A stretch of DNA of 64,000 bases from Vulcanimicrobiota bacterium (GTDB lineage: Bacteria; Vulcanimicrobiota; Xenobia; Xenobiales; JADMJV01). The translations under genes were made by a program, and so were the position numbers. The stretch is taken from the NCBI GenBank assembly GCA_019637395.1, contig JAHBVR010000021.1:1-64000 (forward strand). The letters are read 5' to 3'. Within the stretch, counting starts at the first letter, position 1. Every line of letters begins with the position of its first letter. Below, piece after piece: positions 45,756 through 62,983 of this stretch. The notes beneath the pieces were generated by a model. The model searched no databases and was not told the origin of the DNA. It saw only the letters and a program-made list of their open reading frames with translations.

Positions 45756-45808
45756 GGGCGCCGAATTCCCCGCGGGAAATTTAGTCCCTGCCCAGAATCT
45801 CGGGAGCT

Positions 45809-46777: not shown

Positions 46778-46782
46778 AAAGC

Positions 46783-46819
46783 AAAAGGGCCAGGGAGCTC
46801 GTAGCTCCTCGACCCTTTT
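46783..46819. terminator. Bidirectional intrinsic terminator
   Basis: AAAAGGG and CCCTTTT form the outer stem and GGAGCT and AGCTCC the inner one, with a T-run on the rightward strand and an A-run to the left. It lies six bases after the stalk-domain gene stop and before the convergent Gly-rich gene, so it can stop both. Confidence 0.75.
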
Positions 46820-46836
46820 TGGCTTTGAGTTCGGAT

Positions 46837-47382
46837 TCAGGCTTTACCGGCCAGCTTCGTCTTGGCGGGGGCCTTCTTGGCCGCGGGCTTTTTGGCCGCG
46901 GATTTCTTGGCGCCGCTGTTCTTCTTGGAGGTGCTCCCTTTGGCTCCGGAGGGCTTGCCGACGCTGGAGGGCTGAGCGCCACCAGCTTTGTTGTCACCAC
47001 CGCCGGCCTGTTCGCCGGCGCCGCCGCCCTTGCCCAGGTTTTCGGCCAGGCCTTTGACCATGTCCATGATCTGGCTGGGGTCGAATCCACCGCCGCCGCC
47101 ACCGCCGCCTTCAGCGCCACCGGCTTCTTGAGCCTGCTGCTGGGCTTCCGGGCTGGTCTGGGCCGCATCCTGAGGGTTCTGCTGCTGGAGAAGGGCCTGC
47201 AGCATCTGCATAATCTGTTCGGGGGTCATCTGGCCGGCGCCACCGCCCTGCATACCGGGGGCTCCACCAGGCATGACGCCGCCGCCACCCTGCAACCCGG
47301 GAATTCCTCCACCGGGGATTCCGCCGCCCAGGGGGCCGCCCATCATAGGATTCTGTCCGAAAGATCCGATGCCCATCGCCAT
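46837..47382 (-). CDS. Gly-rich protein with a Lys/Ala histone-like tail
   Basis: A 181-residue low-complexity protein. Residues 1-50 are Gly/Pro/Met-rich, residues 50-100 Gln/Ala/Gly-rich, and the last 45 residues Lys/Ala/Ser-rich (KKSAAKKPAAKKAPAKT), like histone H1 or bacterial Hc1-type tails. That tail should bind DNA, RNA or acidic surfaces. The Gly/Gln part could promote condensates or filaments. It has no signal peptide or catalytic motif. Of the same general type as the Gly-Lys-His protein at 11921, but not homologous. Confidence 0.55.
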   Translation of the reverse strand: MAMGIGSFGQNPMMGGPLGGGIPGGGIPGLQGGGGVMPGGAPGMQGGGAGQMTPEQIMQMLQALLQQQNPQDAAQTSPEAQQQAQEAGGAEGGGGGGGGFDPSQIMDMVKGLAENLGKGGGAGEQAGGGDNKAGGAQPSSVGKPSGAKGSTSKKNSGAKKSAAKKPAAKKAPAKTKLAGKA

Positions 47383-48431
47383 TTGCTTGTTCCTCCAAGT
47401 TCTTCGTTGGATTTATCCTAACGGCCGGAGGCGGGTTTCAGTAGACGGGAAAAACAGACAGTGAGTGAACTGGGTTAACAAGATGTAACAAGACGTTGCG
47501 AGAGTGTAAACAGGCGGACAGTCCGCGCCCTCAAGACTTATTTCCCACTTATCCAGCTAAAGTAAAGGGGGAGAAAAAAACTTTTTCGATTTCGGCGGCT
47601 GCTTGGAGTTTGTTCCACCGTCCTTTCAGGCCTAGCCCAGGTGCTCCTTATCGTAGGCTTCCGCCAGGCGGCCATTTTCATGAGGATCAGGTCTTCCAGT
47701 GTCGCGACCGGTATTCCACTCTGCCCAAACGTTCGCGCGTGGCTCTGAGCCCAACCTGGGCGTCCAGCGAAAGCGAGAACTCGGAGCCTTCTACCAGAAA
47801 CCAAAACGATAAAGGGTAACGATGGCGATCGGCCCTTTCCCATGTGCGAGAATCCGGCCCTCACTGGAGATGAGACCAAGAGATCACAATCTCTGGTAGA
47901 ACGGAGTCGGCCGCGGACCGTGGCTGAGGGCGTAAGGGTCCCCGATCCTCGCAGACAGCCACGGTCCGCCCAGGCAGTCCAGCAGGGAACTATCCAGCCC
48001 GACTGACCACCTCGGCGTAGTCAAAGATTCGAGCTTCTCTCGATCCAGGCGTTCGTTGCTCCGAGCCAGCCTCCGGGCGCGAGCAGCTATCATGCTTCAT
48101 GAGCCCGGCCACGGCGGTCTCATAGTGGACGTCCAGCATTTCCAACAGGAAGTCCCAACGCTGTTTGGGGGGTGCCATGGGCAGCTTTTTCGCGGGGCTT
48201 CGGCGCGCGCAGGCTCTCCTTTTGAGGCGCCAGGGCCCTTGGGTGGACAAGTCAGGCAGGGACTACAAGAAAAGCCGGGAATTTTGCCCGAGCTTGATGA
48301 ATTTTCAGCAAGTTTTCGATAGACTGTTTGGAAGGAAACAGTGTAAGACAGGTCATATCTCGTTCGATGCGCCGGACCGGTGCACTCTTCTAGAAAAAGA
48401 AAAATTTGCAAGAAAGTAGGGGACGCGTCCT
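47383..48431. other. Long intergenic region with decayed coding sequence
   Basis: About 1 kb ahead of ftsZ with no intact gene. Two relics are suspected: the nucleotidyltransferase-like stretch at 47632-47879 (listed), and a leftward frame at 47990-48250 with protein-like text (QRWDFLLEMLDVHYETAVAG) of no known family. No strong repeat or RNA signal is seen. The last part should carry the ftsZ promoter, but I cannot point to a clear one. Confidence 0.4.
47632..47879 (-). pseudogene. Relic of a nucleotidyltransferase-like protein
   Basis: The leftward frame reads SGIPVATLEDLILMKMAAWRK, which resembles the ...V.SLEDLI.LK.AA.R..D... stretch of small MNT-type or AbiEii-like nucleotidyltransferases. 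The frame then breaks; shifting it gives AYDKEHLG and a stop at 47632. Upstream text is not clearly a fold. This is a worn fragment rather than an active gene. Confidence 0.4.
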
Positions 48432-49868
48432 ATGGACCCCACCAGAAACTTCAAACCCGAGGGCAATTCGTTGGAACCCTCGCTCGAGCCCAGTTTAGAG
48501 CCCATGGCTCCTTCGGCTTCGGGTCAGCGTCCGGCCGTGCCCCCGCCGCCGCCGCCCGCGCCCGCCGCTTCGCCGCTGGCAGCGCCTCTGGCGGCTCCCC
48601 CGGCCGCGCCTCCGTCGCGCCCGGCGGCTTCCCAGGCCAGCGGTTCGGGTGTGCGTCCGGCTCTCTCGGCCACTCCCTCGGCACCGGCCGCTTCGAAGCT
48701 GGGTCCGCCGCCCGCCGCTGGCGTGCCGGGCCTGGCCTCGCTGCCGGCCACGCCCAAGAATCCACAACGCGCGGACGGCCGCGGCCAGTTGGAGCACTTT
48801 GCCGGCATCAAGGTGGTGGGGGTCGGCGGTGCCGGTTGTAACGCCGTCAGCCGCATGATTCAAGAAGGCCTGGGCGGGGTGGAGTTCATCGCCATCAACA
48901 CCGACGCGCAAGCTCTCTTCCTGTGCGATGCCGACCAGCGTATCCACATCGGCTCGGCCGCCACGCGCGGTCTGGGCGCCGGCAGCAATCCGGAGATCGG
49001 ACGCCGCGCCGTCGAGGAGAATCAGGAAGAAGTGCTGCGCGCTATCGAAGGCGCCGACATGGTCTTCATCACCGCCGGTATGGGCGGTGGCACCGGCACC
49101 GGCGCCTCGCCGGTGGTGGCGGAGCTGGCCCGTAAGGCCGGCGCTCTGACCGTGGCCGTCGTCACCAAGCCGTTCGGCTTTGAAGGTCGCCGCCGTATGC
49201 AGATCGCCGAGGAGGGCATCGCCCAGCTCAAGTCCAAGGTTGATACGATCATTACGATTCCCAACGATCGCCTGCTCAAGATCGTGTCGGATAAGGAGTT
49301 CATCGCCGACGCTTTCCGCTTGGCCGACGACGTGCTGCGTAACGGCGTGCAGGGCATCTCGGAGATCATCACCGTGCCCGGCCGCATCAACGTGGACTTC
49401 GCCGATGTGCAGGCCATCATGGCCGAGGCTGGCTCGGCGCTGCTCGGTATCGGTATCGCTTCCGGTGAAAACCGGGCGGTGGAGGCGGCGCGCGCGGCCA
49501 TCTCCAGTCCGCTGCTGGAAGCCTCTATCGACGGAGCCACCGGTGTGCTCTTCAACATCACCGGCGGACCCGACCTGACCTTGCTCGAGCTCAACGAAGC
49601 CGCCAAGATCATCTACGAGGCAGTCGACCCCGACGCGCAGATTATCTTCGGTTCGGTGATCGACGAGCGGATGGAAGGGGAAGTGCGCATCACGGTGGTG
49701 GCCACCGGCTTCACCTCCACTCCTTCGTCCTCGTTGGAATCGGAAGAAGGTGGATTCTCGCTGGGCGCCCTCAAAGAAGAGATTTCCTTCGGCAGCCCGT
49801 TGCGCGATATGGATCTGGAACCGGCCATCTTCCGCCGCAAGCACTCCTCCAGCGAACGCAACTTCTAG
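48432..49868 (+). CDS. ftsZ: Cell-division protein FtsZ with a long N-terminal extension
   Basis: A 478-residue tubulin-like GTPase that forms the division ring. The core starts near residue 120 ([17 protein letters not shown]), with the tubulin signature GGGTGTG near 217 and [11 protein letters not shown] in the T7 loop region. The C-terminus ends EPAIFRRKH, the short peptide that binds FtsA, ZipA or similar partners. The first 115 residues are Pro/Ala/Ser-rich ([12 protein letters not shown]) and probably disordered, which is far longer than the usual 10-15 residues. Start ATG 48432 is well placed. Neighbours are not ftsA/ftsQ or mur genes, so this copy is outside a dcw cluster. A terminator follows. 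Confidence 0.97.
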
Positions 49869-49887
49869 TCTTCTTTTTCGGGGAAAG

Positions 49888-49923
49888 GAGCCCGCTCTTT
49901 CGAGAGCGGGCTCTCTGTGTTTT
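49888..49923 (+). terminator. Intrinsic terminator of ftsZ
   Basis: GAGCCCGCTCT and AGAGCGGGCTC form an 11-base perfect stem closed by a TTCG tetraloop, followed by TCTGTGTTTT. It lies 20 bases after the stop codon. Confidence 0.8.
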
Positions 49924-49927
49924 CGGG

Positions 49928-50215
49928 CGTCCCGGTGGGGGCTGACATTTGTTATGCTGGCTCGGGACCTTCGCTGCGTCCCGGTGGAGGCTGACATTTG
50001 TTAAGCTGGCTCGGGACCTTCGCTGCGTCCCGGTAGGGGCTAGCACTTGTTAAGCTGGCTCGGGACCTTCGCTGCGTCCCGGTGGAGGCTAGCACTTGTT
50101 AAGCTGGCTCGGGACCTTCGCTGCGTCCCGGTAGGGGCTAACACTTGTTAAGCTGGCTCGGGACCTTCGCGGCGTCCCGGTGGAGGCTAACATTTGTTAA
50201 GCTGGCTCGGGACCT
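49928..50215. repeat. Six tandem copies of a 49-base unit
   Basis: Units begin at 49928, 49977, 50026, 50075, 50124 and 50173, exactly 49 bases apart. Each has GTCCCG near its left and CGGGAC near its right end (a perfect 6-base inverted repeat), with core TTGTTAAGCTGG (first copy TTATGCTGG). Variation is confined to a few bases: GGTGGAGG or GGTAGGGG, and CTGACATTT or CTAGCACTT. The array lies between ftsZ and the leftward Crp/Fnr gene, with no spacers. Function unknown; a set of protein-binding sites, hairpins in a transcript or slippage-prone repeats are possible. Confidence 0.92.
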
Positions 50216-50245
50216 CTGGGGCTGCCTGACCGCGCCTAGCAAAGC

Positions 50246-50830
50246 TTAGCTGCCCAGATCGGCGACCAGTTGTTCCAGGGCCTGGCGATCGAGTACGGCC
50301 AGCTTTCCGCGACCGGTTTTTACCCAACCGCTCCTGCCGAAGGCACTCAGAGCTTTAGATACGCTTTCGCGGGTGGCGGCCAGGTACTCCGCCAGTTGCT
50401 GCTGAGTGATGGTCCATTCGGCGCTGTTCTGGGTCAACAGGAAGCGGGCCAGACGTAATTGCACCGGGTCGAAGCTGACTTCGGCCAGGCGGGCGCTCAG
50501 GCCGCGGATGCGCTGCGACTGGCGGTGAAAGAGCTTTTCGATGCGCTCGGGATGCTCGCGCAGCCATTCCAGGAAGGCCTGGCGGTCCATGACCCGCACC
50601 ACTACCGGTCCGGCCGCCCGCAGCGTGGCTGAGTGAGGGTTGCCATCCAGACAGGACATTTCGCCGGCCAGTTCGCCCACGCCCAACCGGTTCAGAACAG
50701 CATCCTCGCCTTGCAGGGAGTGCTGCACCACTTCGAGGATGCCCTCTTCCACCCAGACCACGAAGGTACTGGCTTCGCCGGCCTCCCAAAGGATGTCGCC
50801 GGCGTTTAACTTGCGCATCGTCCCTGTCAT
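50246..50830 (-). CDS. Crp/Fnr-family transcription regulator
   Basis: A 194-residue regulator. Residues 5-120 form the cyclic-nucleotide-binding beta barrel (GDILWEAGEASTFVVWVEEG, GELAGEMSCLDGNPHSAT). Residues 130-190 are the winged helix-turn-helix (WTITQQQLAEYLAATRESVSKAL). The glycine pattern and the E-x-S/C region (GEMSCLDG) are those of cAMP-type effector domains, but key Arg is not clearly present (NPHSATLRA), so the ligand is uncertain. No Fe-S Cys cluster. ATG 50830, or MRKLNAG at 50818. It lies just left of the 49-base repeats, which could be its operators. Confidence 0.88.
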   Translation of the reverse strand: MTGTMRKLNAGDILWEAGEASTFVVWVEEGILEVVQHSLQGEDAVLNRLGVGELAGEMSCLDGNPHSATLRAAGPVVVRVMDRQAFLEWLREHPERIEKLFHRQSQRIRGLSARLAEVSFDPVQLRLARFLLTQNSAEWTITQQQLAEYLAATRESVSKALSAFGRSGWVKTGRGKLAVLDRQALEQLVADLGS

Positions 50831-50869
50831 GTCCCAGAAGTTCCCTAGAGGCGGAGTTGTTCCTCGGGT

Positions 50870-51889
50870 TCAGTGGCTCTTCATCTGCAGGATCAGCCAG
50901 ACCAGCAAGCTTACCATCAAGAGCGTCAGCCCGCCGAGCAAAACTCCCTGCGTGCTGGCATGGGGCTTTTTGGCCCGAGCCGAAGAGGTTGGCTTTTCAC
51001 TGACCTCGGCCGGCGCAGGCTTGGGCCGGTCATAGGCTGACTCGACCTTGAAGAGGGCCCCGCGCACCTGGGCCACGTTGGCGTAGCGGTCCTCTTTGCG
51101 CAAGGCCAGCAGGCGGGTGACCAGATCTTCCAATGGAGAAAGAATCAACGGGTTGAGCCGGCGTGGACTGGGCACGGGCCGGCCCGACAGGGCCACTTCG
51201 CTGGCCACCGGAGGGGGTTTTAGAGTCAGCAAATGGTAAAGGGTGGCACCGAGCCCGTAGAGGTCACTGCGCTGGTCGGTGCCGCCGCCCTGGTATTGCT
51301 CGAGGGGACAGTAATCCGGACTGCCCACGCCTTGCAGGATAGTGGCTGTGCGTGAACCGTCTTCCAGGCAACGGGCGATTCCGAAGTCGATCAGGTGAAG
51401 TTTTCCTTCGGGGTCGACCATCACATTGCCCGGTTTGAGATCGCGGAAGAGGATGGGTGGGGTCTGCGCGTGTAGATAATCCAGAACGTCCAATAACTGG
51501 CGAGTCCAACCGAGCACTTCGCGAATCTCAAAAGGCTGCTTCTGGTGGCGCAGCATTTCCGCCAGGGTTTTGCCCCGCACATAGTTCATCGTCAGATAGT
51601 AGCGGCCGTTGTCCAGGAAGAAGTCCCTGACTTTGACCAGCGACGGGTGTTCCAGATGGTAAAGGAAGCTGGCTTCCTGATGAAACTGCTTGACCGCCGC
51701 CTCCTGCAAAGCGGGATTGCAATTCATGCGCAGCTCTTTGACAGCCAGTGGTTCGGCCATGTGAGCCTGGTCCCGCGCGAAGTAGACTGCCCCCATGCCC
51801 CCTCGTCCCAGCACGAACTCGACGAGATACCGACCGGCTAACAGTGTGCCGGCTTCCAGGCACTCGTCAGCGGAGCTTATTTCGGACAT
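50870..51889 (-). CDS. Membrane Ser/Thr protein kinase
   Basis: A 339-residue Hanks-type kinase. GRGGMGAVYFARD (Gly loop), AVKELRMN (catalytic Lys), LFRDLKPGNVMV near 145 (HRD motif with Phe in place of His) and LIDFGIARC (DFG). A C-terminal hydrophobic segment (GGLTLLMVSLLVWLILQM) anchors it in the membrane, with nothing after it. ATG 51889 is chosen; GTG 51916 is possible. The kinase is 83 bases away from the divergent ubiquitin-like cassette. An FRD in place of HRD is seen in active kinases of some bacteria. Confidence 0.9.
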   Translation of the reverse strand: MSEISSADECLEAGTLLAGRYLVEFVLGRGGMGAVYFARDQAHMAEPLAVKELRMNCNPALQEAAVKQFHQEASFLYHLEHPSLVKVRDFFLDNGRYYLTMNYVRGKTLAEMLRHQKQPFEIREVLGWTRQLLDVLDYLHAQTPPILFRDLKPGNVMVDPEGKLHLIDFGIARCLEDGSRTATILQGVGSPDYCPLEQYQGGGTDQRSDLYGLGATLYHLLTLKPPPVASEVALSGRPVPSPRRLNPLILSPLEDLVTRLLALRKEDRYANVAQVRGALFKVESAYDRPKPAPAEVSEKPTSSARAKKPHASTQGVLLGGLTLLMVSLLVWLILQMKSH

Positions 51890-51972
51890 CCGGCTGTCTT
51901 CGGGGATCAGGCTCACTCCCCTTGAGAGAAAAGTTCACGGATGGATCCGCGCGCCTGTTCTAATTTGGGAGT

Positions 51973-52152
51973 ATGAACATTCATTTGCGCTACGCTGGTA
52001 AATCCACCACCTTACAGTCTCCCTACGACCGCGACGAAGACATCATCCGCTTTCTGCAGGATAAGGGCTATTTGCCCCCGGTCAAACCGGAAGTCATGTT
52101 AGACCGCCATCCGGACGGGGTGGTCATTCGGCCGCCGGCGGTGTTCGGCTAA
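51973..52152 (+). CDS. Possible ubiquitin-like (beta-grasp) small protein
   Basis: A 59-residue protein: MNIHLRYAGKSTTL (strand-turn-strand), RDEDIIRFLQDKGY (helix), VMLDRHPDGVVIRP (strands) and an end in AVFG. This order, beta-beta-alpha-beta-beta, and the terminal Gly fit ubiquitin/ThiS-type proteins, which are activated by E1 enzymes at a C-terminal Gly. The end is a single Gly, not GG. Its stop TAA shares a base with the ATG of the TROVE/VWA gene (TAATG), so the two are made together. An E1-like gene lies 2 kb downstream. It has GGGAG three bases before the ATG, which is close. The fold call is inference; it may also be a PRTRC-C-like Ubl. Confidence 0.5.
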   Translation: MNIHLRYAGKSTTLQSPYDRDEDIIRFLQDKGYLPPVKPEVMLDRHPDGVVIRPPAVFG

Positions 52153-53603
52153 TGGAACTCTCGGCTCGCCAAACCTTGATCAACTCGTTTCTGGAGGCAA
52201 GCCACGGCAGGCTTCAGGCGCAAGGCGAGAAGCACGCTCGCGCTCTGGAACTCGACCCGGCCCTCTACGGCCACCTCAGCCGCTGGTATCAACAGAACGG
52301 CACCTTGCGCGACCATCACGAGCTCTTCGGGGCTCACCTGTTGAATGCTCGCGATCCTGAATTTCGCAGCCACGCCAAAGTGTTGGTGCAGACTCTGCGT
52401 CCTTACCAACTGGCTCGCCTCGTGCGTTACAGCAAAGAAGTGCTGAAAAATCGCAACCGTAGCTTGAAATCAGCGGTTCTTTACTACTTACAGCGCCGCG
52501 AGGCCGATCCGCTCTGGTTTGATGAATGCGTGCTGCGCGATCGCCGCTCCATGCGCTATCTTTACGCAACTTTGCACATACGCCCGGGCTTACGGGCCCA
52601 GCAGGTGCTCTTTCAAGAGAAACCTCCGGCCGATAGCCGGCTGCGAGTGTTGCGCCAGTTGCACGGCTTGCGCAGCAATCCGCGCCTGCAGGCACAACTG
52701 ATCCGCGACTACCGCATTCAATTTACCACCGCTCTGGGTGTGGCCGGACCGCTGGTTCCCGAACTGCTGGAATCCCTGGTCTACGTGATGACTCCGCAGC
52801 AGTTGATCAACAATCTGGGTTTTCTGCAGCGGCGCGGCGCTCTGGAGGTACCCGCCCTGCGCGCCCGGGTGATGGAGAAGATCCAACTGGCCAAAACCGA
52901 GAGTCGGGTCCACGATGCCAAAAGTCTGACCGCCCTCAAGCATCTGGCTCCGGACCCGGGTTTGCGCAGAGAGTTGCTGGAGATGAGCCAGACCCGCCTG
53001 CGCTCGCGGGGCACCATCAGCAAGCCCACCGCTCTGCTGGTGGACAAGTCGGGGTCCATGGAAGTGTGCGTGGAAATCGGTAAGATGTTGGCCTGCCTTT
53101 GTTCCACCATTGCCGAGGCGCCGCTCTTTGTCGAGGCTTTCGACGGTGACAGTTTCACGGTTTCCTGTCAGGAGCCGACCTTCGAGGCCTGGGAAAAGGC
53201 TTTCCGGCACATTCGAGCGGACGGTTGGACCAGTCTGGGAGCTCCCTTGCGGAAATTGCGCGATAAGCGCTTTGAGCAGATTCTGCTGATTTCCGATGGA
53301 GAGGAGAATACCCAGCCTTTCTTCTGTGAGGAGTTACGCAAAACCGGGCGAGACATCGAAGTGATCTGGCTGAAAGTGGGAGGGTCCAGTCAGACCAGCC
53401 TGGAGCACAGTGCTCAACGCCTGGGAGTGAATCTGCGCACCATTCCCTTTCAGGGAGACTACTACAACCTGCCCAACCTGGTGCCTTTGCTGTGCACCAA
53501 GGATACGCTGGTCAGCGAGATTCTCGAGGTTCCCTTATATGTGGATGGCGATCTGCAACATCTGCCGCCCGGTTTCTGCGCCGAGACCTATGAAATCTTG
53601 TGA
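52152..53603 (+). CDS. TROVE/VWA protein, Ro60/Rsr-like
   Basis: A 483-residue protein. The first 290 residues are helical repeats. MTPQQLINNLGFLQRRGALE lines up with a TROVE/Ro60 stretch (LPLTALLRNLGKM...), and RVHDAKSLTALKHL with ...RIHPFHILIALETY. The C-terminal 190 residues are a von Willebrand A domain with the whole MIDAS site: VDKSGSM (DxSxS, near 298), DGWTSLG (Thr) and ISDGEEN (Asp). This is the layout of Ro60 and bacterial Rsr, which form a ring that binds misfolded or Y RNA. TROVE identity is by eye only. It overlaps the next gene by 14 bases. In this cassette the VWA could also recognise the E1/Ubl partner. Confidence 0.6.
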   Translation: MELSARQTLINSFLEASHGRLQAQGEKHARALELDPALYGHLSRWYQQNGTLRDHHELFGAHLLNARDPEFRSHAKVLVQTLRPYQLARLVRYSKEVLKNRNRSLKSAVLYYLQRREADPLWFDECVLRDRRSMRYLYATLHIRPGLRAQQVLFQEKPPADSRLRVLRQLHGLRSNPRLQAQLIRDYRIQFTTALGVAGPLVPELLESLVYVMTPQQLINNLGFLQRRGALEVPALRARVMEKIQLAKTESRVHDAKSLTALKHLAPDPGLRRELLEMSQTRLRSRGTISKPTALLVDKSGSMEVCVEIGKMLACLCSTIAEAPLFVEAFDGDSFTVSCQEPTFEAWEKAFRHIRADGWTSLGAPLRKLRDKRFEQILLISDGEENTQPFFCEELRKTGRDIEVIWLKVGGSSQTSLEHSAQRLGVNLRTIPFQGDYYNLPNLVPLLCTKDTLVSEILEVPLYVDGDLQHLPPGFCAETYEIL

Positions 53604-54177
53604 GAGACTGGCGCCCTGCGCGAATGGCAGAGTGCAAATGCGTTCCGCCGAGGGTATCACCTGGTGGCAGCCGGGCCGTGCTCCCCGGGACGGCTGGTAC
53701 TGGTGGGACGAGCACGGTCTGTGCCGGCGCCCGGCCGAGTTTTGGGAACTTCTCGACTTACCTTTGCGCACGCTGCAGAAGGGGCGGCAGCCTTTGATGC
53801 TGGCCGAGAGTTTCCGGGACGGAGATTGGCTCAAGGCCTGGTGGGACGGCACCCGGGGTTGGACCGTGGGTCCCTGTGCCGGTCCCAGCGCCCCCACCAG
53901 AGTTTATCCAGGCCGGGATCTGCGCCGGGCAGTGGAGCGCGGGGGAGGGGAGTTGCTCTCAGCCACTCCCACCCAGCAAGGCTGGAGCGTCACCTGGAGG
54001 CGCGGCCGGGAGACGCATACCAGCCAGATAGACGGCCAACTCAATGTTCTCTCGGCCGGGTTCTGCTTGAGTGGCCAGGATCGGATTCAGGATTTGACCA
54101 GCCTGGTCTCTTTGATCGGGGAAAGGGAAAGTCACTATGAAAATGCTCATCTGTGGGGTGGGGACGTTGGGTGGTAA
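53590..54177 (+). CDS. Trp-rich protein of the Ubl/E1 cassette
   Basis: A 195-residue protein starting MKSCERLAPCANG. It has many Trp residues (ITWWQPGRAPRDGWYWWDEH, WLKAWWDGTRGWTV) and a C-terminal strand-helix run (WSVTWRRGRE, SAGFCLSGQDRIQDLTSLV). I do not recognise a family. The ATG at 53590 overlaps the TROVE/VWA gene by 14 bases, and its last 41 bases overlap the E1-like gene, so translation of the cassette is tightly linked. Trp-rich motifs can bind peptides or sugars. An E2-like or JAB-peptidase identity was considered, but no Cys-His-Asp or JAMM (HxH) pattern is present. Confidence 0.55.
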   Translation: MKSCERLAPCANGRVQMRSAEGITWWQPGRAPRDGWYWWDEHGLCRRPAEFWELLDLPLRTLQKGRQPLMLAESFRDGDWLKAWWDGTRGWTVGPCAGPSAPTRVYPGRDLRRAVERGGGELLSATPTQQGWSVTWRRGRETHTSQIDGQLNVLSAGFCLSGQDRIQDLTSLVSLIGERESHYENAHLWGGDVGW

Positions 54178-54688
54178 TCTGGTGGAACATCTGGCCCGCA
54201 CCGGGCTGGACGCTCTGACCGTGCTCGATCACGATAAAGTCCAGCCACGCAATCTGGCCAATCAGCCCTATTTTCAGCACCAGCTGGCTAAATCCAAAGT
54301 GGCTGCCCTGGCGGAAACCGTTTTCCGTATTCGCGGTCAGCAAATCGAGACAGTGCACAAACGCTTGCATGAGGGCAACGCCCGGGGCCTGGTCAAGGGC
54401 TATGAACTGGTGGTGGACTGCTTCGATAATCATCAGGCCCGCCACGATCTGCAACAGGCCTGCCGCCAGGCGCGGGTGGATCTGGTGCATATGGGTTTGT
54501 CTCTCGACTATGGGGAAGTGATTTGGGATGAGCATTATCGCGTGCCGCCCGATGTGGCCCGCGATCCTTGCGCTGAGCCCCTGGCCCGCCGTCTGGCGCT
54601 GCAGGCGGTGCTGCTCTTCGAGAAGGCGCGAGCGGGTCGGGAAAATCTCTGCTTCACAGCGGGAGATCTGGTCGTAACGCGAATTTGA
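54137..54688 (+). CDS. ThiF/E1-like adenylating enzyme, short form
   Basis: A 183-residue Rossmann-fold protein. ICGVGTLGGNLVEHLARTGL is the E1 nucleotide-binding loop, LDHDKVQPRNLANQPYF the acidic ribose-binding segment, and VVDCFDNHQARHDL (Asp near 94) the Mg/adenylate Asp. The usual Arg in NLxRQ is Asn here. There are no CxxC zinc-binding pairs and no second half, so it is shorter than ThiF (about 250) or MoeB. The Cys near residue 150 (ARDPCAEP) might be the thioester Cys. Such short forms occur in PRTRC and other ubiquitin-like systems. It overlaps the Trp-rich gene, and an Hsp90-like gene follows after six bases. Confidence 0.78.
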   Translation: MKMLICGVGTLGGNLVEHLARTGLDALTVLDHDKVQPRNLANQPYFQHQLAKSKVAALAETVFRIRGQQIETVHKRLHEGNARGLVKGYELVVDCFDNHQARHDLQQACRQARVDLVHMGLSLDYGEVIWDEHYRVPPDVARDPCAEPLARRLALQAVLLFEKARAGRENLCFTAGDLVVTRI

Positions 54689-54694
54689 TGCTGA

Positions 54695-56422
54695 GTGATT
54701 GAAGAGCGTCTCAGCCAGGAAGCCCGGCATCATTCTTCGGGCCAGTTTACGCTGGACTCGGCGGTGGCCTGGAAAAAACTGCGGGCCCATCAGGTACATC
54801 AACCCGGCCGCTATGCTTGCGAACTGGTAGCGGCCGGCGTGGCCCTGGGCGCCAAATGGTTGGACATTCATTTTCAGCCGAAGTTGGCCCGGGTGCATTT
54901 GCGTGGCTGTGAACTCGACCGCCGCGGGCTGGAGGGCTTGCTTTCCCATCCCGTCGGGCATCCGCTCATGCTCGGTTTGCTCGGCGCCCAGCGCTACTAT
55001 CAAAAGAGCTGCCGCATTCGAGTCGTCTGTCAGGGAGGCATTTGCCGGATCGAGGGCGAGCGGCTGGAGCTCGGCGAGGGTGGCGAAGGCACCGGGATTC
55101 TGGTGGAGATCCAGGCGCTGGGAGGCAGCTTTTTTTCGCCGGCCCGCCTCGACCACGCGCTGGCTCTGGACTACCTGGAGGAAGAATGCCAGGACGGGGT
55201 ACTACACATCGAGGTCAATGGCCGCGCACTGACCAGGCCGGTTTCGCTGGGAGATAGTCTGACGACGGTGCGTCTGGTGCACCCGGATTTCGGAATGCCG
55301 GAGTTTGTGGGGCGCGCTTTTGAAGTTCGGGAAATGGAGTCACCGGGACCGTTCTGTGCGCTGGTCGGATGCCTGAGCCATAAGCAAGAGACGGTGATCA
55401 GCAACGGTCGGGTTTTGTTGCGCCGCCAGACGCCCGGATACTCCGCTTTTGTGTTCTTGCGCGAAGCCGAATTGGATTTGTCCGGCGAACTGGTCGGCGG
55501 CGGGCGGGCGTTGCTGGAGCTGGTGCACGGCCTGGTACGCCAGACTTTGTTGGAGTGGGCCGGACGTCCCAACCTGCCCGAAGCCTACAAAGAACGTTTG
55601 CACCAGTTCTGGGCCGACTGGCTGGTCCAGGAGCCGGAGGGCCCCCTGGCCGACCGGCTACATTTTTCCTTGTGTTGTGGTGATACCGTGCCTCTGCGGG
55701 ACTTGCTGGGAAAACCGGTCTACTTTTCCGAAGGGCCTCTTCAAGGGCCTGTTTTGCGTCCCGATCCGTTGCTGCTGCGTCTTTTCCCCGAGGCCGTCAA
55801 ACTGCCCACACCCCCCGAAGAAGTACGGGTGTCGATCGAGGCCGGTCCGGAAGGACTGTGCTACGATCCTCAAGGCGAGTACGTGGACTTGATTCTGTCC
55901 GACCCCGCTCAGGTTCAGGCCGCCTTGACGGCCGCCCAACTGCTGCCACCAGGAAGCCGTTGGAGTACCTGGAACCCGGGTAAGGGAGTGTCTCAACCGT
56001 TGCTCGAGCTATTGGAGGCAGCTGCCCGGGAGCCTGCGCGTCTGCCCGAAGTTCTGGGTTACCTGGGTTGGGCCGGCCAGCGTTTCCAGGTGGTGGCGCA
56101 GAAATTGTTGGGTCTGCGCATGCGCATGGGAGGCAAAATCAGCCTGCCCAACTCGGCGCTGGACGCCATGCTGGGGCGGGCCGACGAGATGACCTTGTCC
56201 TGGCTGGTCGACGGCGGCCTGTTGGTGGGGCTGGGCGAACTGGAGAGTGTGAATTTCTTGCCTACTCGCAGCGGAAAATTGGTCTCCCTGCTGGGTTTGT
56301 TGGCGGCCCCTAAGGTCTTTATCAATCAGGATCATCCCGATTCGCTGTTGGTTCCCCCGGAATACGCGGGGCTGCTGCAGCAGTTCGTGGGCGCCATCCG
56401 GCGCGGCGTGGTTTCTGCGTAG
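54695..56422 (+). CDS. Hsp90-like (degenerate GHKL) protein, paralogue C
   Basis: A 575-residue protein, third member of the family. GTG start at 54695, six bases after the E1-like stop. It has HSSGQFTLDSAVAWKKL, PGRYACELVAAGVALGA (Hsp90 helix lacking its Asn/Asp), VLHIEVNGRAL and FLREAELDLSGELV, in the same order as in paralogues A and B. The C-terminal half is helical and ends VGAIRRGVVSA. Within the cassette it could act as a chaperone for the TROVE/VWA or the modified targets. ATPase activity is doubtful. It is followed by polX, 35 bases downstream. Confidence 0.5.
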   Translation: MIEERLSQEARHHSSGQFTLDSAVAWKKLRAHQVHQPGRYACELVAAGVALGAKWLDIHFQPKLARVHLRGCELDRRGLEGLLSHPVGHPLMLGLLGAQRYYQKSCRIRVVCQGGICRIEGERLELGEGGEGTGILVEIQALGGSFFSPARLDHALALDYLEEECQDGVLHIEVNGRALTRPVSLGDSLTTVRLVHPDFGMPEFVGRAFEVREMESPGPFCALVGCLSHKQETVISNGRVLLRRQTPGYSAFVFLREAELDLSGELVGGGRALLELVHGLVRQTLLEWAGRPNLPEAYKERLHQFWADWLVQEPEGPLADRLHFSLCCGDTVPLRDLLGKPVYFSEGPLQGPVLRPDPLLLRLFPEAVKLPTPPEEVRVSIEAGPEGLCYDPQGEYVDLILSDPAQVQAALTAAQLLPPGSRWSTWNPGKGVSQPLLELLEAAAREPARLPEVLGYLGWAGQRFQVVAQKLLGLRMRMGGKISLPNSALDAMLGRADEMTLSWLVDGGLLVGLGELESVNFLPTRSGKLVSLLGLLAAPKVFINQDHPDSLLVPPEYAGLLQQFVGAIRRGVVSA

Positions 56423-56457
56423 CAGGGGCGGGACGCGACTGTTCGGAACAGTCCGCC

Positions 56458-58173
56458 ATGGCCTTTGAAGATAACCAGCAACTGACGCGGATTTTTGAGG
56501 AAATCGCTGATTTTCTAGAGTTGCAGGGCGAGAATATCTTTAAGGTTAAGGCCTATCAGAAAGCGGCTCGTGGCCTGGAGGGCCTGGAGAGGTCGGTGAG
56601 CGAGCTCTACCGTAGCGGCGCGCTGGCCTCCATGCCCGGTTTCGGCAAGGCGCTGGTGGAAAAAGTCGGGCAGTTCGTCGATCGCGGTGAAGTGGAGTTG
56701 CACCAGCAACTGAAGTCCTCGTTTCCTCCCGAGATTTTGCATCTGATGGACGTGCCCGGCCTGGGAGCCAAGAAGGCGGCCCTGCTTTATAAGGAATTGG
56801 GCATCGGCAGCGTGGATGCGCTGGAGAAGGCGCTGCGCGAGGGGCTGGTCACTGACATCAAGGGTTTCGGCACGAAAACCGTGGACAAACTGCTGGAAGG
56901 CATCGGCCTGCTGCGCCAGGGGGAACAGCGCTGGTTGCTGGGTCGGGTCTCCGTGCTGGCCGAGGAGTTGCTGGCCAGGCTGCGGGCGCTGCCGGTGGTG
57001 CAGCGGGCCGAAGCGGCTGGTTCGCTGCGGCGCGGCAAAGAGACGGTTGGGGACCTGGATCTGTTGGTCATTTCCTCGGCACCCGAGCAGGTGATGGAGT
57101 TCTTTGCAGGGTTAGGCGAGGTGATCGGGAGCGGTCCCACCAAGACCAGCATTCGCTGGGAGGGGACCTTTCAAATCGATTTGCGCTGCGTTCCGGCCGA
57201 GTCGTTCGGAGCGGCCCTCCAGTATTTCACCGGCTCGATGGACCACAATGTGGCTTTGCGCGGCCGGGCCAGACGTATGAGCTGTGAGTTGAACGAGTAT
57301 GGGCTATTTGATGCGCTGGGCCAGTGTATCGCCAGTGAAACCGAAGAAGAGATTTATGCGAAATTGGGTTTGCCCTGGATCGCGCCGGAATTGCGCGAAA
57401 GCGGGGCCGAGCTGGAGTGGGAACGGCAACCGGAGCGCCTGGAGCTGGGCAAACTACAGGGGAACCTGCATACCCATTCGTTGTGGTCGGATGGCACCGA
57501 TACCCTGGAACAGTTGGCTGAAGAAGCGCAACGGCGGGGGTATCGTTACCTGGCGGTGACCGATCACTCCCGCTCGATGGTGGTGGCCAACGGATTGACA
57601 GTGGAGCGTCTGCTCGCTCAGGGTGAGGAAATTGCCCGTTTGAACCGTAATTTTAAGAATTTTCGCTTGCTCTGGGGGAGTGAGGTCGATATTTTGGGCG
57701 ATGGCACGCTGGATTTTCCCGAGGAGATTTTGGCGCGCCTGGATTTCGTGGTGGTGGCCGTGCACAGCCAGTTCTCCATGAGCCCGGAAGCTATGACCGA
57801 GCGCATTTGCCGGGGGATTTCCCATCCCCACGTGGACGTGCTGGCTCATCCCAGCGGGCGTAAAATCAATCGCCGGGCGGGTTACCAGGCCGATTGGGAG
57901 CGAGTTTATGCGGTGGCGCGCGAGCACGGAGTGGCTTTGGAAATCAACTGCTCGCCACGGCGCCTGGATTTGAACGATAAAGCGGCCCGCCGCGCCCGCG
58001 ACTGCGGCTGTTTGATCTCGCTGGGCACGGACGCGCATTCTCTGCCCGAATTTGACTATCTGCCGCTGGGGGTTCTGCAGGCCCGGCGCGCCGGTATCGA
58101 GGCTTCCTCGCTGCTCAACAGTTTGTCCTGGGAACAGCTAAGAAAGCGGCGGCCGCATCTTGCTGACGTTTAG
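56458..58173 (+). CDS. polX: DNA polymerase/3'-5' exonuclease PolX
   Basis: A 571-residue family X polymerase with a PHP nuclease tail. Residues 1-150 are the 8-kDa lyase-like and helix-hairpin-helix regions (LASMPGFGKALVEKV, VPGLGAKKAALLYKELG). The palm has GSLRRGKETVGDLDLLV with two catalytic Asp near 197-199 and FQIDLRCV (third Asp). The PHP domain begins NLHTHSLWSDG near 336 with VTDHSRS and INCSPRRLD as metal ligands. PolX fills gaps in base-excision repair. It is the usual bacterial size. Its end overlaps the TTG start of an ABC permease by 14 bases, so it may be expressed with that pair. Confidence 0.95.
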   Translation: MAFEDNQQLTRIFEEIADFLELQGENIFKVKAYQKAARGLEGLERSVSELYRSGALASMPGFGKALVEKVGQFVDRGEVELHQQLKSSFPPEILHLMDVPGLGAKKAALLYKELGIGSVDALEKALREGLVTDIKGFGTKTVDKLLEGIGLLRQGEQRWLLGRVSVLAEELLARLRALPVVQRAEAAGSLRRGKETVGDLDLLVISSAPEQVMEFFAGLGEVIGSGPTKTSIRWEGTFQIDLRCVPAESFGAALQYFTGSMDHNVALRGRARRMSCELNEYGLFDALGQCIASETEEEIYAKLGLPWIAPELRESGAELEWERQPERLELGKLQGNLHTHSLWSDGTDTLEQLAEEAQRRGYRYLAVTDHSRSMVVANGLTVERLLAQGEEIARLNRNFKNFRLLWGSEVDILGDGTLDFPEEILARLDFVVVAVHSQFSMSPEAMTERICRGISHPHVDVLAHPSGRKINRRAGYQADWERVYAVAREHGVALEINCSPRRLDLNDKAARRARDCGCLISLGTDAHSLPEFDYLPLGVLQARRAGIEASSLLNSLSWEQLRKRRPHLADV

Positions 58174-59287
58174 TCTGGCCCTGCGCAACGTCCTTCGCAA
58201 CCGGGAGCGTTCTCTGCTCACGCTGATCGGAGTGTTGTTGGCCATCGGCTCTTTCGTGGCCCTGGTTTCGCTGGCCGAAGGATTGAGCCGGCGCATCGAG
58301 ATGGAGTTGGACAGCCGGGCCGTGGACATCTACGTCATGCCCGAGCAGGCCCTGGCCCTGCCTTCCGGTCCCATCGGAACCATCGGCTACAGCCAGGATA
58401 CAATAAGTAATGAGACACTTACCAAGATCAAAGAGCTACCCAATGTGGCCGAAGCCATCGGGGTCAATCGCGACTCCTGGAAAGGCCGCCATGCTATTTT
58501 GCCGATTCTCTACCTGGATCAAAGAGCGATTGCCGTATTTTTTCCAAATCTCTCGGGTGTACCGGAAGATTTGGCTGAAGGGCAGGTCATTCTGGGCCAG
58601 GGTCTGGCCCGTCAGGAGTTCGGTAGCGGCGGGGCCGATGCCATTCAGCACGGCCAGACCAGGTTGAGGGTGGTCGGCATCGTGCGCGGTGGTGGTTTCC
58701 AGGACTTTTTTGCTTTCGTGAAACCAGCCGAGCAGAACAATGGCTATCAGGAGATCTGGCTCAAGCTGAGCGACATCAACCTGGCCAGCGGCGATGCGGC
58801 CACGCTGCGCTCGCAGTTTCCCGGCCTGAAGGTGCTGACGCGCCGGGAATACCTGGCCAGCAGTAACGTTTTCGTGCGCTACGCCTGGTTGTTGCAAGCT
58901 TCCATCGCCTCCATCGGGGTGCTTATCGCCATCACTGCCTCCATGAACACCATGCTGATGTCCACCTATGAACGGCTTCGGGAGTTTGCCGTGCTTCGAG
59001 CCATCGGAGCCTCGCGAGCTACCGTGGGTATGATGTTGCTTTGGGAGTCGCTGATGTTGAGCGGCATGGGCGGGATTTTAGGCTGCCTGTTCGGTGTGCT
59101 GGTTTCGGGAGTTTTGGATGAAGCGGTAGTGGTTTTGCTGCAACTGCCCTTTCCGCTGGCCCAAATCACGCCGTTGTTGCTGTTGCAGGGCATGCTCTTG
59201 TCGATGCTGGTGGGTGGGGCCGGCGCCTTGATTCCCCTGATTCTGATCTGGCGCCAGCAGATTATGGACGGGTTGAGGACGGAATAG
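58160..59287 (+). CDS. ABC transporter permease, MacB/FtsX/LolC-type
   Basis: A 375-residue membrane protein: one N-terminal helix (LLTLIGVLLAIGSFVALVSLA), a large extracellular domain (MacB-PCD fold, residues about 45-240) and three C-terminal helices (ASIASIGVLIAITASMNTML onward). The pattern fits type VII ABC permeases that drive mechanical transmembrane signalling or lipoprotein/efflux transport. TTG start inside the polX end. The partner ATPase gene follows immediately (TAGTG overlap). Substrate is not known. Confidence 0.88.
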   Translation: MLTFSLALRNVLRNRERSLLTLIGVLLAIGSFVALVSLAEGLSRRIEMELDSRAVDIYVMPEQALALPSGPIGTIGYSQDTISNETLTKIKELPNVAEAIGVNRDSWKGRHAILPILYLDQRAIAVFFPNLSGVPEDLAEGQVILGQGLARQEFGSGGADAIQHGQTRLRVVGIVRGGGFQDFFAFVKPAEQNNGYQEIWLKLSDINLASGDAATLRSQFPGLKVLTRREYLASSNVFVRYAWLLQASIASIGVLIAITASMNTMLMSTYERLREFAVLRAIGASRATVGMMLLWESLMLSGMGGILGCLFGVLVSGVLDEAVVVLLQLPFPLAQITPLLLLQGMLLSMLVGGAGALIPLILIWRQQIMDGLRTE

Positions 59288-59952
59288 TGCGCGTCTCGCT
59301 GACCGGCATTCATAAGATTTACGGAAAGACCCGGCCCACCAAGGTGCTGGACGATCTCTCCATGACCATCGAGAGCGGTGACTTCGTGGCCATTACCGGC
59401 CCTTCCGGTTCGGGCAAGAGTAGTCTCTTGAATTTGCTGGGATGCCTGGACAGCCCCACCTTCGGGCAGATATTCTTCGACCAGCGCGACGTTTCGCGGG
59501 CGCCGGAAGCAGTGCGCGAGCGCATTCGCCTGCAGCACATCGGCTTTGTTTTTCAGAACTACCAGTTGCTGCCCGGTTTGACGGTCCAGGAAAACGTGTC
59601 CCTACCCATGCAGCTGGCCGGCGTGCGCCGCGGCGAGCGGCTGGCCCGGGTGCAGGGATTGCTGACCATGATCGGCCTGCAGAAGCAGGCGGACCAGCGT
59701 ATCGGCACACTTTCCGGCGGGCAGCAACAGAAAGTGGCGGTGGCGCGGGCGCTGGCCAATCTGCCCGGCCTGTTATTGGCGGATGAGCCCACCGGCAGTC
59801 TGGACGGCCAGTCCACTCTGCAGGTGATGGAGGTGATTCGCGAGGTGAACCGTAGCCGCAGCGTTACCACCATCCTGGTCACCCACGACCCGCAGGTGGC
59901 CGCTTACGCGCAGAAGGTTTATCGTTTAGAAAATGGGCAATTGCATGGGTGA
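59287..59952 (+). CDS. ABC transporter ATPase, LolD/MacB-like
   Basis: A 221-residue ATPase. Walker A GPSGSGKSSLL, Q-loop QNYQLLPGLTVQENV, signature LSGGQQQKVAVARAL, Walker B LLLADEPTGSLDG, and H-loop VTHDP are all present, so it should be active. GTG 59287 overlaps the stop of the permease gene. With the MacB/FtsX-type permease it makes a two-part complex. Likely role in lipoprotein sorting, efflux or envelope signalling; no partner periplasmic protein is next to it. Confidence 0.92.
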   Translation: MRVSLTGIHKIYGKTRPTKVLDDLSMTIESGDFVAITGPSGSGKSSLLNLLGCLDSPTFGQIFFDQRDVSRAPEAVRERIRLQHIGFVFQNYQLLPGLTVQENVSLPMQLAGVRRGERLARVQGLLTMIGLQKQADQRIGTLSGGQQQKVAVARALANLPGLLLADEPTGSLDGQSTLQVMEVIREVNRSRSVTTILVTHDPQVAAYAQKVYRLENGQLHG

Positions 59953-60010
59953 AAAGCAGGGAAGGGCTGGGTGTGAGTTTGAAGAACGCTTTCGCGAGGA
60001 GTAACCACCA

Positions 60011-60520
60011 GTGATCATTTGTCATATCTGTGGGCATAATAATAACCCGGATTTCAACCACTGTGAAAAATGTGGTGCTCGCCTCCCCAAGCTCGATCCC
60101 CGGGCCGCTCACTCGGCTGGTCAGACTCGCCAGACCGTTAAGTATGAGCGCCTGCGCACGGCCGTGATGAAGTTGAAGACCGGCGAGCAGAGCTGGATTG
60201 ATTTTCAAGACTGGTTCCAGGGGTTTTACGACGATATTATGGGCCGTATTCAGGGTCTGGTCGACTCTATTCACCAATCGCACGGCCCGGGTTGGAACTA
60301 CTACGAAGAGTTTACCGAGGAAGTAGAGACCACATTTTCCGGGGTGGAAGACTACGAGACTTCTTTGAATCAAGTCTGGCAGGCCATTGAAACCAACGAC
60401 CTGGTGCTGGCCCAGTCGGCCGTCAAGCTGTTCCTGCGCGGCGCCGAGAAGTTGAACGACGCGCTGGTGCTCAACGGAGAAACCCAGCGCAAATTAGAAG
60501 AGAACTGGGGCTATATGTAG
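60011..60520 (+). CDS. Zinc-ribbon helical protein
   Basis: A 169-residue protein: N-terminal zinc ribbon (ICHICGHNNNPDFNHCEKCGARL, two CxxC pairs, here split into ICHICG and HCEKCG) followed by an acidic helical domain (EQSWIDFQDWFQGFYDDIM, VKLFLRGAEKLNDAL). It begins with GTG 60011. Two bases separate its stop from the next ABC ATPase start. Zinc ribbons of this kind tend to mediate protein or nucleic-acid contact. Function unknown. Confidence 0.65.
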   Translation: MIICHICGHNNNPDFNHCEKCGARLPKLDPRAAHSAGQTRQTVKYERLRTAVMKLKTGEQSWIDFQDWFQGFYDDIMGRIQGLVDSIHQSHGPGWNYYEEFTEEVETTFSGVEDYETSLNQVWQAIETNDLVLAQSAVKLFLRGAEKLNDALVLNGETQRKLEENWGYM

Positions 60521-60521
60521 C

Positions 60522-61262
60522 CTGGTCGAGCTCAGCCAGGTCTCGTTCGCTTACGCCGCTCAAGATGTTCTTTCCGGGGTTTCTCTGCGGCTGGAACCGG
60601 GTCAGGTCTTCGCTCTGCTGGGCGCCAACGGAGCCGGCAAAAGCACATTGCAAAAGCTGATCCGTGGTAGCCTGAAGCCCCGCGAGGGAACGGTGCGCGT
60701 CTTCGGTTCTGATCCGTGCGAGGGGTCGGCCTGGCGGAAACGCCTGGCCTGGATTACCGACCAGCCCGCTCTGCATCCGCGTTTGACGGTGCTGGAAACG
60801 CTGCGTTTTTACGCGGGCCTGTATGGCGTTTCGGCCGACTTCGCGGGGTTGCTGCGTCAGGTCGGCTTGTCTGGATTGGAAAAACGTTATGGCTCGCAAC
60901 TTTCCCGAGGACAGCAGCAGCGCCTGGCCTGGGCCCGAGCTTTGCTGGTGCGGGCCGAGTTGTTGCTGCTGGATGAGCCCACCAACGGATTGGACGTATT
61001 GGGCCGTGAGGAGATTTATCGCCTGGTGCGCCAATTTCGCGGGACTATTTTATTGTCGACCCACGATATGCGCGAGGCTCAGGAACTGGCCGGCCGGGTG
61101 GGAATTCTGTACGAAGGCCGGTTATTGGCCGAAGGAACGCCGGCCGAGCTGTGCCTCCGGCATCTGGGTCAGGAACTGGGAGATCTGGCCCAGCAGCCCA
61201 GTTTGGAGCGGGTTTATCGAGCCCTGGCGGGCAGGAGTCTGTACCGGGCATCCGAAGAATAA
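60522..61262 (+). CDS. ABC-2-type transporter ATPase with a non-standard start
   Basis: About 246 residues of an ABC ATPase (CcmA/NatA-like). The full domain must begin near 60522, since the frame reads LVELSQVSFAYAAQDVLSG and GANGAGKSTLQKL (Walker A). Signature is LSRGQQQRLAWARALL and Walker B LLLLDEPTNGLDV. No ATG, GTG or TTG precedes the first strand in frame; CTG 60522 is the best candidate (or ATA at 60513). A TTG at 60648 would cut off Walker A, which is unlikely. The stop of the preceding gene is at 60520. It precedes the SPOR-like gene and an ABC-2 permease. Confidence 0.8.
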   Translation: MVELSQVSFAYAAQDVLSGVSLRLEPGQVFALLGANGAGKSTLQKLIRGSLKPREGTVRVFGSDPCEGSAWRKRLAWITDQPALHPRLTVLETLRFYAGLYGVSADFAGLLRQVGLSGLEKRYGSQLSRGQQQRLAWARALLVRAELLLLDEPTNGLDVLGREEIYRLVRQFRGTILLSTHDMREAQELAGRVGILYEGRLLAEGTPAELCLRHLGQELGDLAQQPSLERVYRALAGRSLYRASEE

Positions 61263-61265
61263 GCA

Positions 61266-61856
61266 ATGCGTCGTCTGCTGCTGATTGTTGTTGCTTTCTT
61301 GTGGGTTACCAATGGGGTTTTGCTGGCCTGGGTGAAAATGACTCCGCCCCCGCCGCCCCCGGCCGAGAAGAAGCTGCTGCTGGTCTATTGTGAGAAGAAA
61401 GATCAACCCAAGAAAGTCAGCAAGGTATTGGAAGGCCTCAATTTAAAGCCGGAAATTCGCTCCAATCAAGCCTGGAAACACGAAGTGCAGGAAGGCTTTA
61501 TCGTGGTCAACCGGGTCACCGATCCGGACGTGCGCAAGGGCATTTTTGCCGGCATGAAAAATCTCTTGCCGGTCAAGATCGTAGGCGATGACATTCGCCT
61601 GGGCGGCGTTTATAAAACCAAACCGGAAGCGGCCAAGGCCGCCGCCGGGGCGCGCAACAAGGGCTTCACTTTTCAGGTAGTCGACAATATCGTGACCAGG
61701 ACGACCAAGGTTCAGGTGGTTCGAGTGGCTTCGATCGAGGAAACAAAAGCCGGTGAGGCCGAGGAAGCCCTGAAGAAGCTCAATTTGAATGAGAACCAGA
61801 TTGTGGTCGAGTCGTTGGATGCACCGGCCGGGGCTTCCGCAATGCCCACGCCCTAG
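61266..61856 (+). CDS. Membrane-anchored SPOR-like protein
   Basis: A 196-residue protein with one N-terminal helix (LLLIVVAFLWVTNGVLLAW), a Pro-rich linker (PPPPPPAEKK) and a two-part periplasmic domain. The second part (VYKTKPEAAKAAAGARNKG, then FQVVDNIVTRTTKVQVVRV) resembles SPOR domains, which bind peptidoglycan stripped of peptides. The exact family is not certain. It lies between the ABC ATPase and permease, so the three could work together. No catalytic residues seen. Confidence 0.55.
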   Translation: MRRLLLIVVAFLWVTNGVLLAWVKMTPPPPPPAEKKLLLVYCEKKDQPKKVSKVLEGLNLKPEIRSNQAWKHEVQEGFIVVNRVTDPDVRKGIFAGMKNLLPVKIVGDDIRLGGVYKTKPEAAKAAAGARNKGFTFQVVDNIVTRTTKVQVVRVASIEETKAGEAEEALKKLNLNENQIVVESLDAPAGASAMPTP

Positions 61857-61858
61857 GC

Positions 61859-62890: not shown

Positions 62891-62898
62891 CTCCGGGT

Positions 62899-62962: not shown

Positions 62963-62983
62963 TATACCCAAGGAGTAACCTGA

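Follow-up and report, generated by a model that had tools for sequence, protein, structure and literature searches.

A conserved bacterial cassette of a predicted ubiquitin-like protein, a Ro60-like protein and an E1-like enzyme, with Y-RNA-like RNAs in its relatives

The PRTRC systems hold a ThiF protein together with a small ubiquitin-like protein (Ubl), as does the gene cassette described here, and the cyclic-oligonucleotide-based antiphage signalling system (CBASS), with its Cap2 and Cap3 proteins, as well as other bacterial E1-E2-JAB defence operons, reportedly have enzymes of the E1 and JAB types and ubiquitin-like chemistry in common with it. The cassette lies in a stretch of 64,000 nucleotides from a Vulcanimicrobiota bacterium (assembly GCA_019637395.1, contig JAHBVR010000021.1, positions 1 to 64,000 of the forward strand), which as a whole we call the window, and consists of the genes of a predicted Ubl, a protein with TROVE and VWA parts that looks Ro60-like (TROVE-VWA), a Trp-rich protein (P3) and an E1-like enzyme (E1). 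Its nearest precedent is the Salmonella rsr-yrlBA-rtcBA operon, which, in the parts of its description available to us, combines Ro, YrlA and an RNA ligase and is induced when tRNAs are cut (PMC7790460). The authors of that work suggest that YrlA could inhibit an anticodon nuclease, and the same parts report that no YrlA fragments were seen (PMC7790460). In cyanobacteria, the trn operon has an HNH gene in the same regulon and is induced by translation stress, according to the accessible sections of the study (PMC10272220).

A conserved cassette of four genes

Ubl, TROVE-VWA, P3 and E1 form a real conserved cassette. A scan of named genomes yielded 284 candidate relatives, the best 80 of which were fetched (L083-L162), and the VWA protein was present in 18 of the 58 related genomes searched, its own genome counted. 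Gene order was tallied over 98 loci, the window included, which make 97 distinct ones, L028 and L089 being the same contig. This tally and those of odd tRNA calls and stem patterns exclude six loci that had been fetched a second time (L021-L025, L029); these duplicates are counted in the rows for the interval between Ubl and TROVE-VWA, in the number of P3 relatives and in the neighbour clusters. All four genes were found in 36 of the 97 distinct loci, always on one strand, and 35 of these 36 keep the order Ubl, TROVE-VWA, P3, E1, the remaining one being arranged as Ubl, P3, E1, TROVE-VWA. Of the 98 loci as tallied, the others hold Ubl and TROVE-VWA only (32), TROVE-VWA only (24) or other parts (6), many of them being cut at contig ends. 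Hosts of the complete set include Cyanobacteriota, Chloroflexota, Armatimonadota, Acidobacteriota, Myxococcota and Chlorobiota. An uncultured phage of 595 kb, LR756511.1 (L191, stretch 276747-296213), carries Ubl, TROVE-VWA, P3, JAB and E1 in that order, along with about 10 Y-RNA-like stem starts, which match the 5' half of the pattern only, and matches to the RNA model R1 of up to 79.9 bits.

The window copy groups with L083-L087, L026 and L027 (clade support 100/100), apart from the C31 cassette of the same genome, which has two Y RNAs and a JAB gene. It is a stripped, reduced form of the cassette, with no Y RNA in the 64 kb, no JAB (the JAMM pattern is absent from positions 44000-64000) and a shortened E1. 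A phage or plasmid origin of this copy is unsupported; relatives of the L110 protein occur in 2 records of the plasmid collection and 1 of the phage collection.

In the window, the four genes open a block of five rightward genes, which an earlier note on this DNA had described as a single set joined by overlaps or gaps of at most six bases. All five frames are open, and the junctions are as tight as described: Ubl and TROVE-VWA share one base (TAATG), P3 starts at the ATG at 53590 with an overlap of 14 bases with the TROVE-VWA gene, E1 starts at the ATG at 54137 with an overlap of 41 bases with P3, and gene 5 starts at the GTG at 54695, 6 bases past the E1 stop. A Ser/Thr kinase gene diverges upstream of the block and a polymerase-X gene lies downstream. 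As one set, the block holds for the first four genes, which are kept together in relatives, and fails for the fifth, which encodes a Hsp90-like protein (P0005, 575 aa, 54695..56422, +) and is a local addition outside the conserved cassette. Its membership is ruled out by its absence from the same site in the sister genomes G003 and G002, where the polymerase-X gene comes directly after E1; an iterated search of the loci fetched by then found P0005 in the window only. Its Hsp90 nature comes down to one weak profile match, of residues ~215-295 to the Hsp90 middle domain (hhalign 32%, E 4.8e-4), and Pfam gave no match for P0005 and no Hsp90 match for four relatives. The P0005 family, possibly one of divergent Hsp90-like proteins, is expanded in the genus, with 8-14 matches per genome (E up to 0.01) that mostly share the N-terminal 100 residues. 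Members of it also lie in the window at 13786-14364 (-) and 32539-32700 (-).

Proteins of the cassette

The Ubl frame of 59 aa (51973..52152, +), which ends in RPPAVFG with the last Gly codon at 52147-52149, is a real gene, with relatives in 14 of the fetched loci, the window not counted; its differences from the G003 counterpart (L083) fall 10/5/20 on the codon positions. Among 48 sequences, H4, R6, G9, S11, R53, P54, A56 and G59 are invariant, and the tail reads RPxAVFG or RPxAVYG with small variants, always (48/48) with the terminal Gly. The AlphaFold model, with a predicted local distance difference test (pLDDT) score of 90.0, places strands at 2-7 and 10-15, a helix at 21-31 and strands at 42-46 and 49-53. 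The beta-grasp order and C-terminal Gly that had been proposed from the sequence are thus both recovered, and the protein is predicted to be a beta-grasp modifier ending in Gly. Structure comparison matched it to ubiquitins, TtuB, MoaD and protein G, with no Z above 5.1; TtuB (Z 5.0, 2.7 Å, 50 aligned) and MoaD (Z 4.9, 2.7 Å, 58 aligned) are tied with protein G and the ubiquitins.

The TROVE-VWA protein (483 aa, 52152..53603, +) consists of a helical N part, ~1-290, and a VWA part with its metal site from D298 (53043). This metal-ion-dependent adhesion site (MIDAS) is complete, as the earlier note had said, with DKSGS at 53043 and the later T and D, and its columns are kept in the alignment A1, which covers 19 of 24 family members. 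A separate alignment, A9, uses 28 sequences to represent a set of 98, and two more are without the cut motif. With the whole-length profile, the best two matches in the PDB are the TROVE proteins 9l5y and 9kop (E 5e-5). Against the TROVE alignment, hhalign gave 99.1% for the whole length and 98.3% (E 1.2e-14) for the VWA part alone, which carries most of the signal. The first description of the protein as Ro60-like TROVE/VWA therefore stands for the VWA part, which is clear, and gains from the Y-RNA-like RNAs that adjoin the gene in relatives, while the match of the N-terminal TROVE part is weak. Judged by its sequence the protein looks Ro60-like, and because the window has no Y RNA we use this name and do not file the protein as Rsr. 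Tandem TROVE-VWA paralogues were seen within one cassette in L031 (2628-6431), L132 (8001-11636) and L099 (5603-9389). A more distant TROVE-VWA family (~23-28% identity) occurs in L036-L039, with Y-RNA-like matches just upstream and no Ubl or E1 found.

P3 (195 aa, 53590..54177, +) is a Trp-rich protein of unknown family with a conserved C-terminal domain at ~107-183, and relatives of it were found in 48 searched loci, duplicates and window included. Its AlphaFold model has a pLDDT of 72.5 and a predicted template modelling score (pTM) of 0.42; the C-terminal alpha-beta stretch is predicted confidently, with blocks within residues 111-150 at 90 or more. The fold search gave no confident match for P3, the Z values of up to 6.0 (2.2 Å, 52 residues) being taken as a common arrangement.

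The E1-like enzyme (183 aa, 54137..54688, +) is the only one of the five window proteins recognised by Pfam, NCBIfam and PADLOC, the PADLOC matches being partial and reaching 52.5 bits at best. Pfam ThiF (PF00899) matches it at 90.1 bits (cut-off 28.1; E 1.6e-25), which bears out the firm call made before. It matches SUMO, MoeB and ThiF enzymes, with the best model scores for ThiF and MoeB. All 22 aligned E1s keep three nucleotide-loop glycines, D31, D33, D94 and one Cys, which is Cys145 (54569-54571) in the window, and D97 is nearly invariant. Most E1s have an Arg in the NLxRQ motif, and the window enzyme has Asn42 in its place. An N-terminal segment containing HE is present in 11 of 16 E1s, and the five without it are the window copy and L083-L086, all of the window type. 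In L030, L033 and L035, a JAB gene comes after E1.

Y-RNA-like RNAs and neighbouring genes

The RNAs, the repair and translation genes and the tRNA arrays treated in this section, like JAB, are found in relatives, outside the window. ARAGORN called a tRNA between Ubl and TROVE-VWA in 51 of the 67 distinct contigs with at least 60 bases there (52 of 71 rows), and many of these calls are odd, such as 'Leu' tRNAs of 72-75 bases. The RNA frame consists of an outer stem of 9 pairs, an internal loop (CCTAAC vs AACTT), a second stem of 9 pairs, TACATAC and a tRNA body. Across 67 aligned copies, 95.9% of cells pair and 22 of 36 pairs are compensatory, with 0 of 500 shuffles as high; sliding the pairing partners destroys the covariation signal. 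This alignment (A5) retains 67 of 99 pattern matches, the others being 11 unclosed by the pattern, 17 near copies (>93% alike) and 4 more. A stem model independent of the head (A10, 30 hand-picked copies) has compensatory changes at 18 of its 19 pairs. Scanning with the stem pattern located 258 frames in 75 of the 98 sources, and 256 of them are upstream (within 9 kb) of TROVE-VWA on the same strand. The heads carried by the stems are canonical tRNAs, permuted tRNAs (T arm before D arm, YrlA-like) or short hairpins without a tRNA-like part, classes that in the scan come from rough patterns with at least 3 matches double-counted. The 67 copies with canonical heads present 26 anticodon triplets, with U33 in 62 and a purine at 37 in 63, features of the anticodon loop that would fit mimics of many tRNAs. 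Rfam YrlA (RF02553) matched the interval between Ubl and TROVE-VWA in 8 of 9 loci, with best scores per locus of 28.9-38.3 bits; since even 38.3 bits is below the gathering score of 69, we name the RNAs Y-RNA-like and do not file them as YrlA. All 58 of 58 genomes gave matches to model R1, a tally that is uninformative because ordinary tRNAs match the tRNA part of the model, and full-model matches alone were used.

A short version of the RNA lies between Ubl and TROVE-VWA in the window-type loci L085, L086, L087 and L027. In single-sequence folds, L086 gave a z of -5.64, and the C31 and C9 RNAs were unremarkable (z -1.37 and -0.84). The C9 RNA is an orphan YrlA-like RNA of the same genome with a permuted tRNA head (G000:C9:74847-74981, that is L197 4347-4481, -; 28.7 bits, E 0.0046). 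It is kept in all five genus genomes examined, and its fetched flanks contain none of the cassette genes. It is possible that the window copy takes its Y RNA in trans, from the C31 cassette or the C9 orphan. A pattern match in the window itself, at 55567, falls within coding sequence and was taken as chance.

In many cyanobacterial loci, genes for KptA, an RNA ligase, an EF-Ts paralogue or an AAA protein follow TROVE-VWA and precede P3 and E1, where these were fetched. The clusters are named from one identified representative each: KptA/Tpt1 (representative 4e-55) in 9 loci, an ATP-grasp RNA ligase (2.7e-22) in 6 loci and the EF-Ts paralogue in 10 loci, with an L7/L12 paralogue, placed before TROVE-VWA, in 21 loci. 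NUDIX, NADAR, GNAT and a second VWA protein are other neighbours. Nine loci out of 80 (L088, L113, L116, L120, L122, L124, L125, L138 and L158) have at least 10 tRNA calls upstream of Ubl, counts that include the tRNA mimics, and five of these nine have an HNH gene. Near the HNH gene, at the upstream end of L115, L116, L122, L124 and L128, is a small ribbon-helix-helix gene (cluster c36), three of these loci having a tRNA array; by analogy, it could encode a TrcR-like repressor.

Proposed function and comparison with known systems

We think it fairly probable that the cassette encodes the protein side of a Ro60-like/Y-RNA particle that acts on tRNA damage and brings its own machinery for ubiquitin-like conjugation; the architecture is well supported and the mechanism is what we infer. 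The observations from which this reading sets out are the gene order, the RNA structure, the domain types and the association with repair and translation genes. The TROVE-VWA protein would bind the stem of the Y RNAs, whose heads in many cases mimic tRNAs, as their sequence and covariation show. E1 would activate the C-terminal Gly of Ubl and pass Ubl, probably via the invariant Cys, to a target that may be the TROVE-VWA protein, P3 or a translation protein, and in the fuller versions the JAB peptidase could remove it again, as its place in the neighbourhood suggests. From the neighbourhood as well, RNA ligase, KptA, EF-Ts, L7/L12 and the spare tRNA genes may serve to restore tRNA and translation, and the trigger would likely be tRNA damage or translational stress caused by toxins, phage or anticodon nucleases. 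The earlier note had proposed protein modification tied to an RNA-binding ring and a chaperone; the link to RNA handling is kept here, and the chaperone is dropped as it does not belong to the cassette.

Several points weigh against this proposal, beginning with the fact that both Ubl conjugation and tRNA damage as the signal are inferred, and some of them lend themselves to other explanations. No E2 was recognised, although no search aimed at E2 was made. The Arg of NLxRQ is present in 0 of 22 aligned E1s, Thr, Asn, Met or Val taking its place, and the short window E1, like that of its close kin, is without the N-terminal HE-containing segment. These features would be expected if E1 were degenerate and non-catalytic, with Ubl, E1 and P3 either regulating the Ro particle or belonging to it without covalent attachment; we regard this as improbable given the invariant loop glycines, aspartates and Cys of E1, the constant terminal Gly of Ubl and the JAB gene of some cassettes. 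It also seems unlikely that the genes form a sulfur-carrier system, in which Ubl would be of the ThiS/MoaD/TtuB kind, E1 its adenylyltransferase and thiolated tRNA or a thiolated mimic the product, with no protein conjugation. The TtuB and MoaD matches of Ubl, the ThiF and MoeB scores of E1 and the tRNA context of the cassettes point that way, whereas Ubl ends in a single Gly and not in Gly-Gly, no rhodanese or cysteine desulfurase was recognised among the scanned neighbour families, and JAB, present in the fuller cassettes, is of the deconjugase type.

The RNA side of the proposed particle has its own difficulties. The N-terminal TROVE part alone gave a non-significant 0.7% in hhalign against the TROVE alignment, a search of this genome with Pfam TROVE gave nothing at E 0.1 or better, and when the N part was compared with all of the PDB an unrelated protein came best (E 0.03), ahead of the TROVE entries (E 0.042). 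No YrlA match was obtained in the three same-genus loci L030, L033 and L035, no Y RNA was found in the 64-kb window with Rfam, models R1 and R2 or the stem pattern, and the space that the domain ends leave in the window, 17 bases, is too small for one. The VWA protein could then be merely HEAT-like/VWA and not Ro-like, with the adjoining RNAs serving another protein. We consider this very unlikely: only 3 PDB sequences match the N part up to E 10 and two of them, whose alignments run collinearly in two pieces, are TROVE proteins, and the RNAs upstream match YrlA, albeit below the cut-off, with the stem pattern in three quarters of the sources (75/98).

A further model builds on the particle with conjugation and looks doubtful to us. 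Here the Y RNAs would be a set of anticodon baits on the Ro-like ring, between them displaying many anticodon loops, alongside permuted mimics with the acceptor side on display. When an anticodon nuclease cut one of these baits, the particle would be released or reshaped, and this would switch on Ubl conjugation, repair enzymes and spare tRNAs. The anticodon columns are no more than among the more variable unpaired ones, ranking 3, 8 and 5 of 53, which speaks against it, and we lowered its odds because no YrlA fragments are reported in Salmonella when tRNAs are cut, in the available parts of that paper (PMC7790460). The presence of different anticodons within a locus was rejected as evidence for baits by shuffling, 18 of 19 loci having all different ones against 17.6 expected.

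In this cassette, research on Ro60/Y-RNA particles meets that on prokaryotic ubiquitin-like conjugation, two subjects so far investigated separately. If the proposed particle is real, bacterial Y RNAs would gain a signalling output and spare tRNA arrays a natural context, and the defined RNAs, Ubl, E1 and deconjugase would provide a compact test system for what Ro60 particles sense. The huge-phage copy suggests use on both sides of a tRNA-directed conflict. In the open literature we recognised no paper on a TROVE protein or Y RNA combined with a Ubl or an E1; the RNA-repair review by Burroughs and Aravind (2016) may describe part of it.

Among the systems that share the ubiquitin-like side, the E1 scores 38.0 bits against TIGR03736 of PRTRC, whose cut-off is 144.75 (other PRTRC genes were not searched for), and 57.9 bits against the cap2_3 model (6A-MBL) of CBASS, whose cut-off is 320. 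The PADLOC models of E1-E2 defence operons match the E1 in part only, an E2 being the component not recognised here. The bacterial Ubl-E1-JAB operons (Iyer et al., 2006; PMC1779556) are like the cassette in placing a small beta-grasp protein, a ThiF-type E1 and JAB in one operon; the terms vWA, von Willebrand and TROVE do not occur in that text, and the portion of it available to us has no RNA partner. The long spare-tRNA array of the cyanobacterial trn operon with its repressor TrcR (PMC10272220) resembles the arrays upstream of the cassette in some loci, and the terms vWA, ubiquitin and ThiF are absent from that paper. In the Salmonella rsr-yrlBA-rtcBA operon, as far as the available parts of its description go (PMC7790460), a relative of Ro60 stands, as in the cassette, with RNA repair genes and with Y RNAs that include a tRNA-like domain, and there is a link to tRNA cleavage. 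The cassette differs in having Ubl, E1, in places JAB, an ATP-grasp RNA ligase and KptA where the operon has RtcB, RtcA and RtcR, and in having more RNAs, among which are some whose heads are canonical tRNAs complete with anticodon loop. We rate the cassette as a variant of the Ro/Y-RNA repair particle, which would come nearer to a new kind if the conjugation or the bait model were shown.

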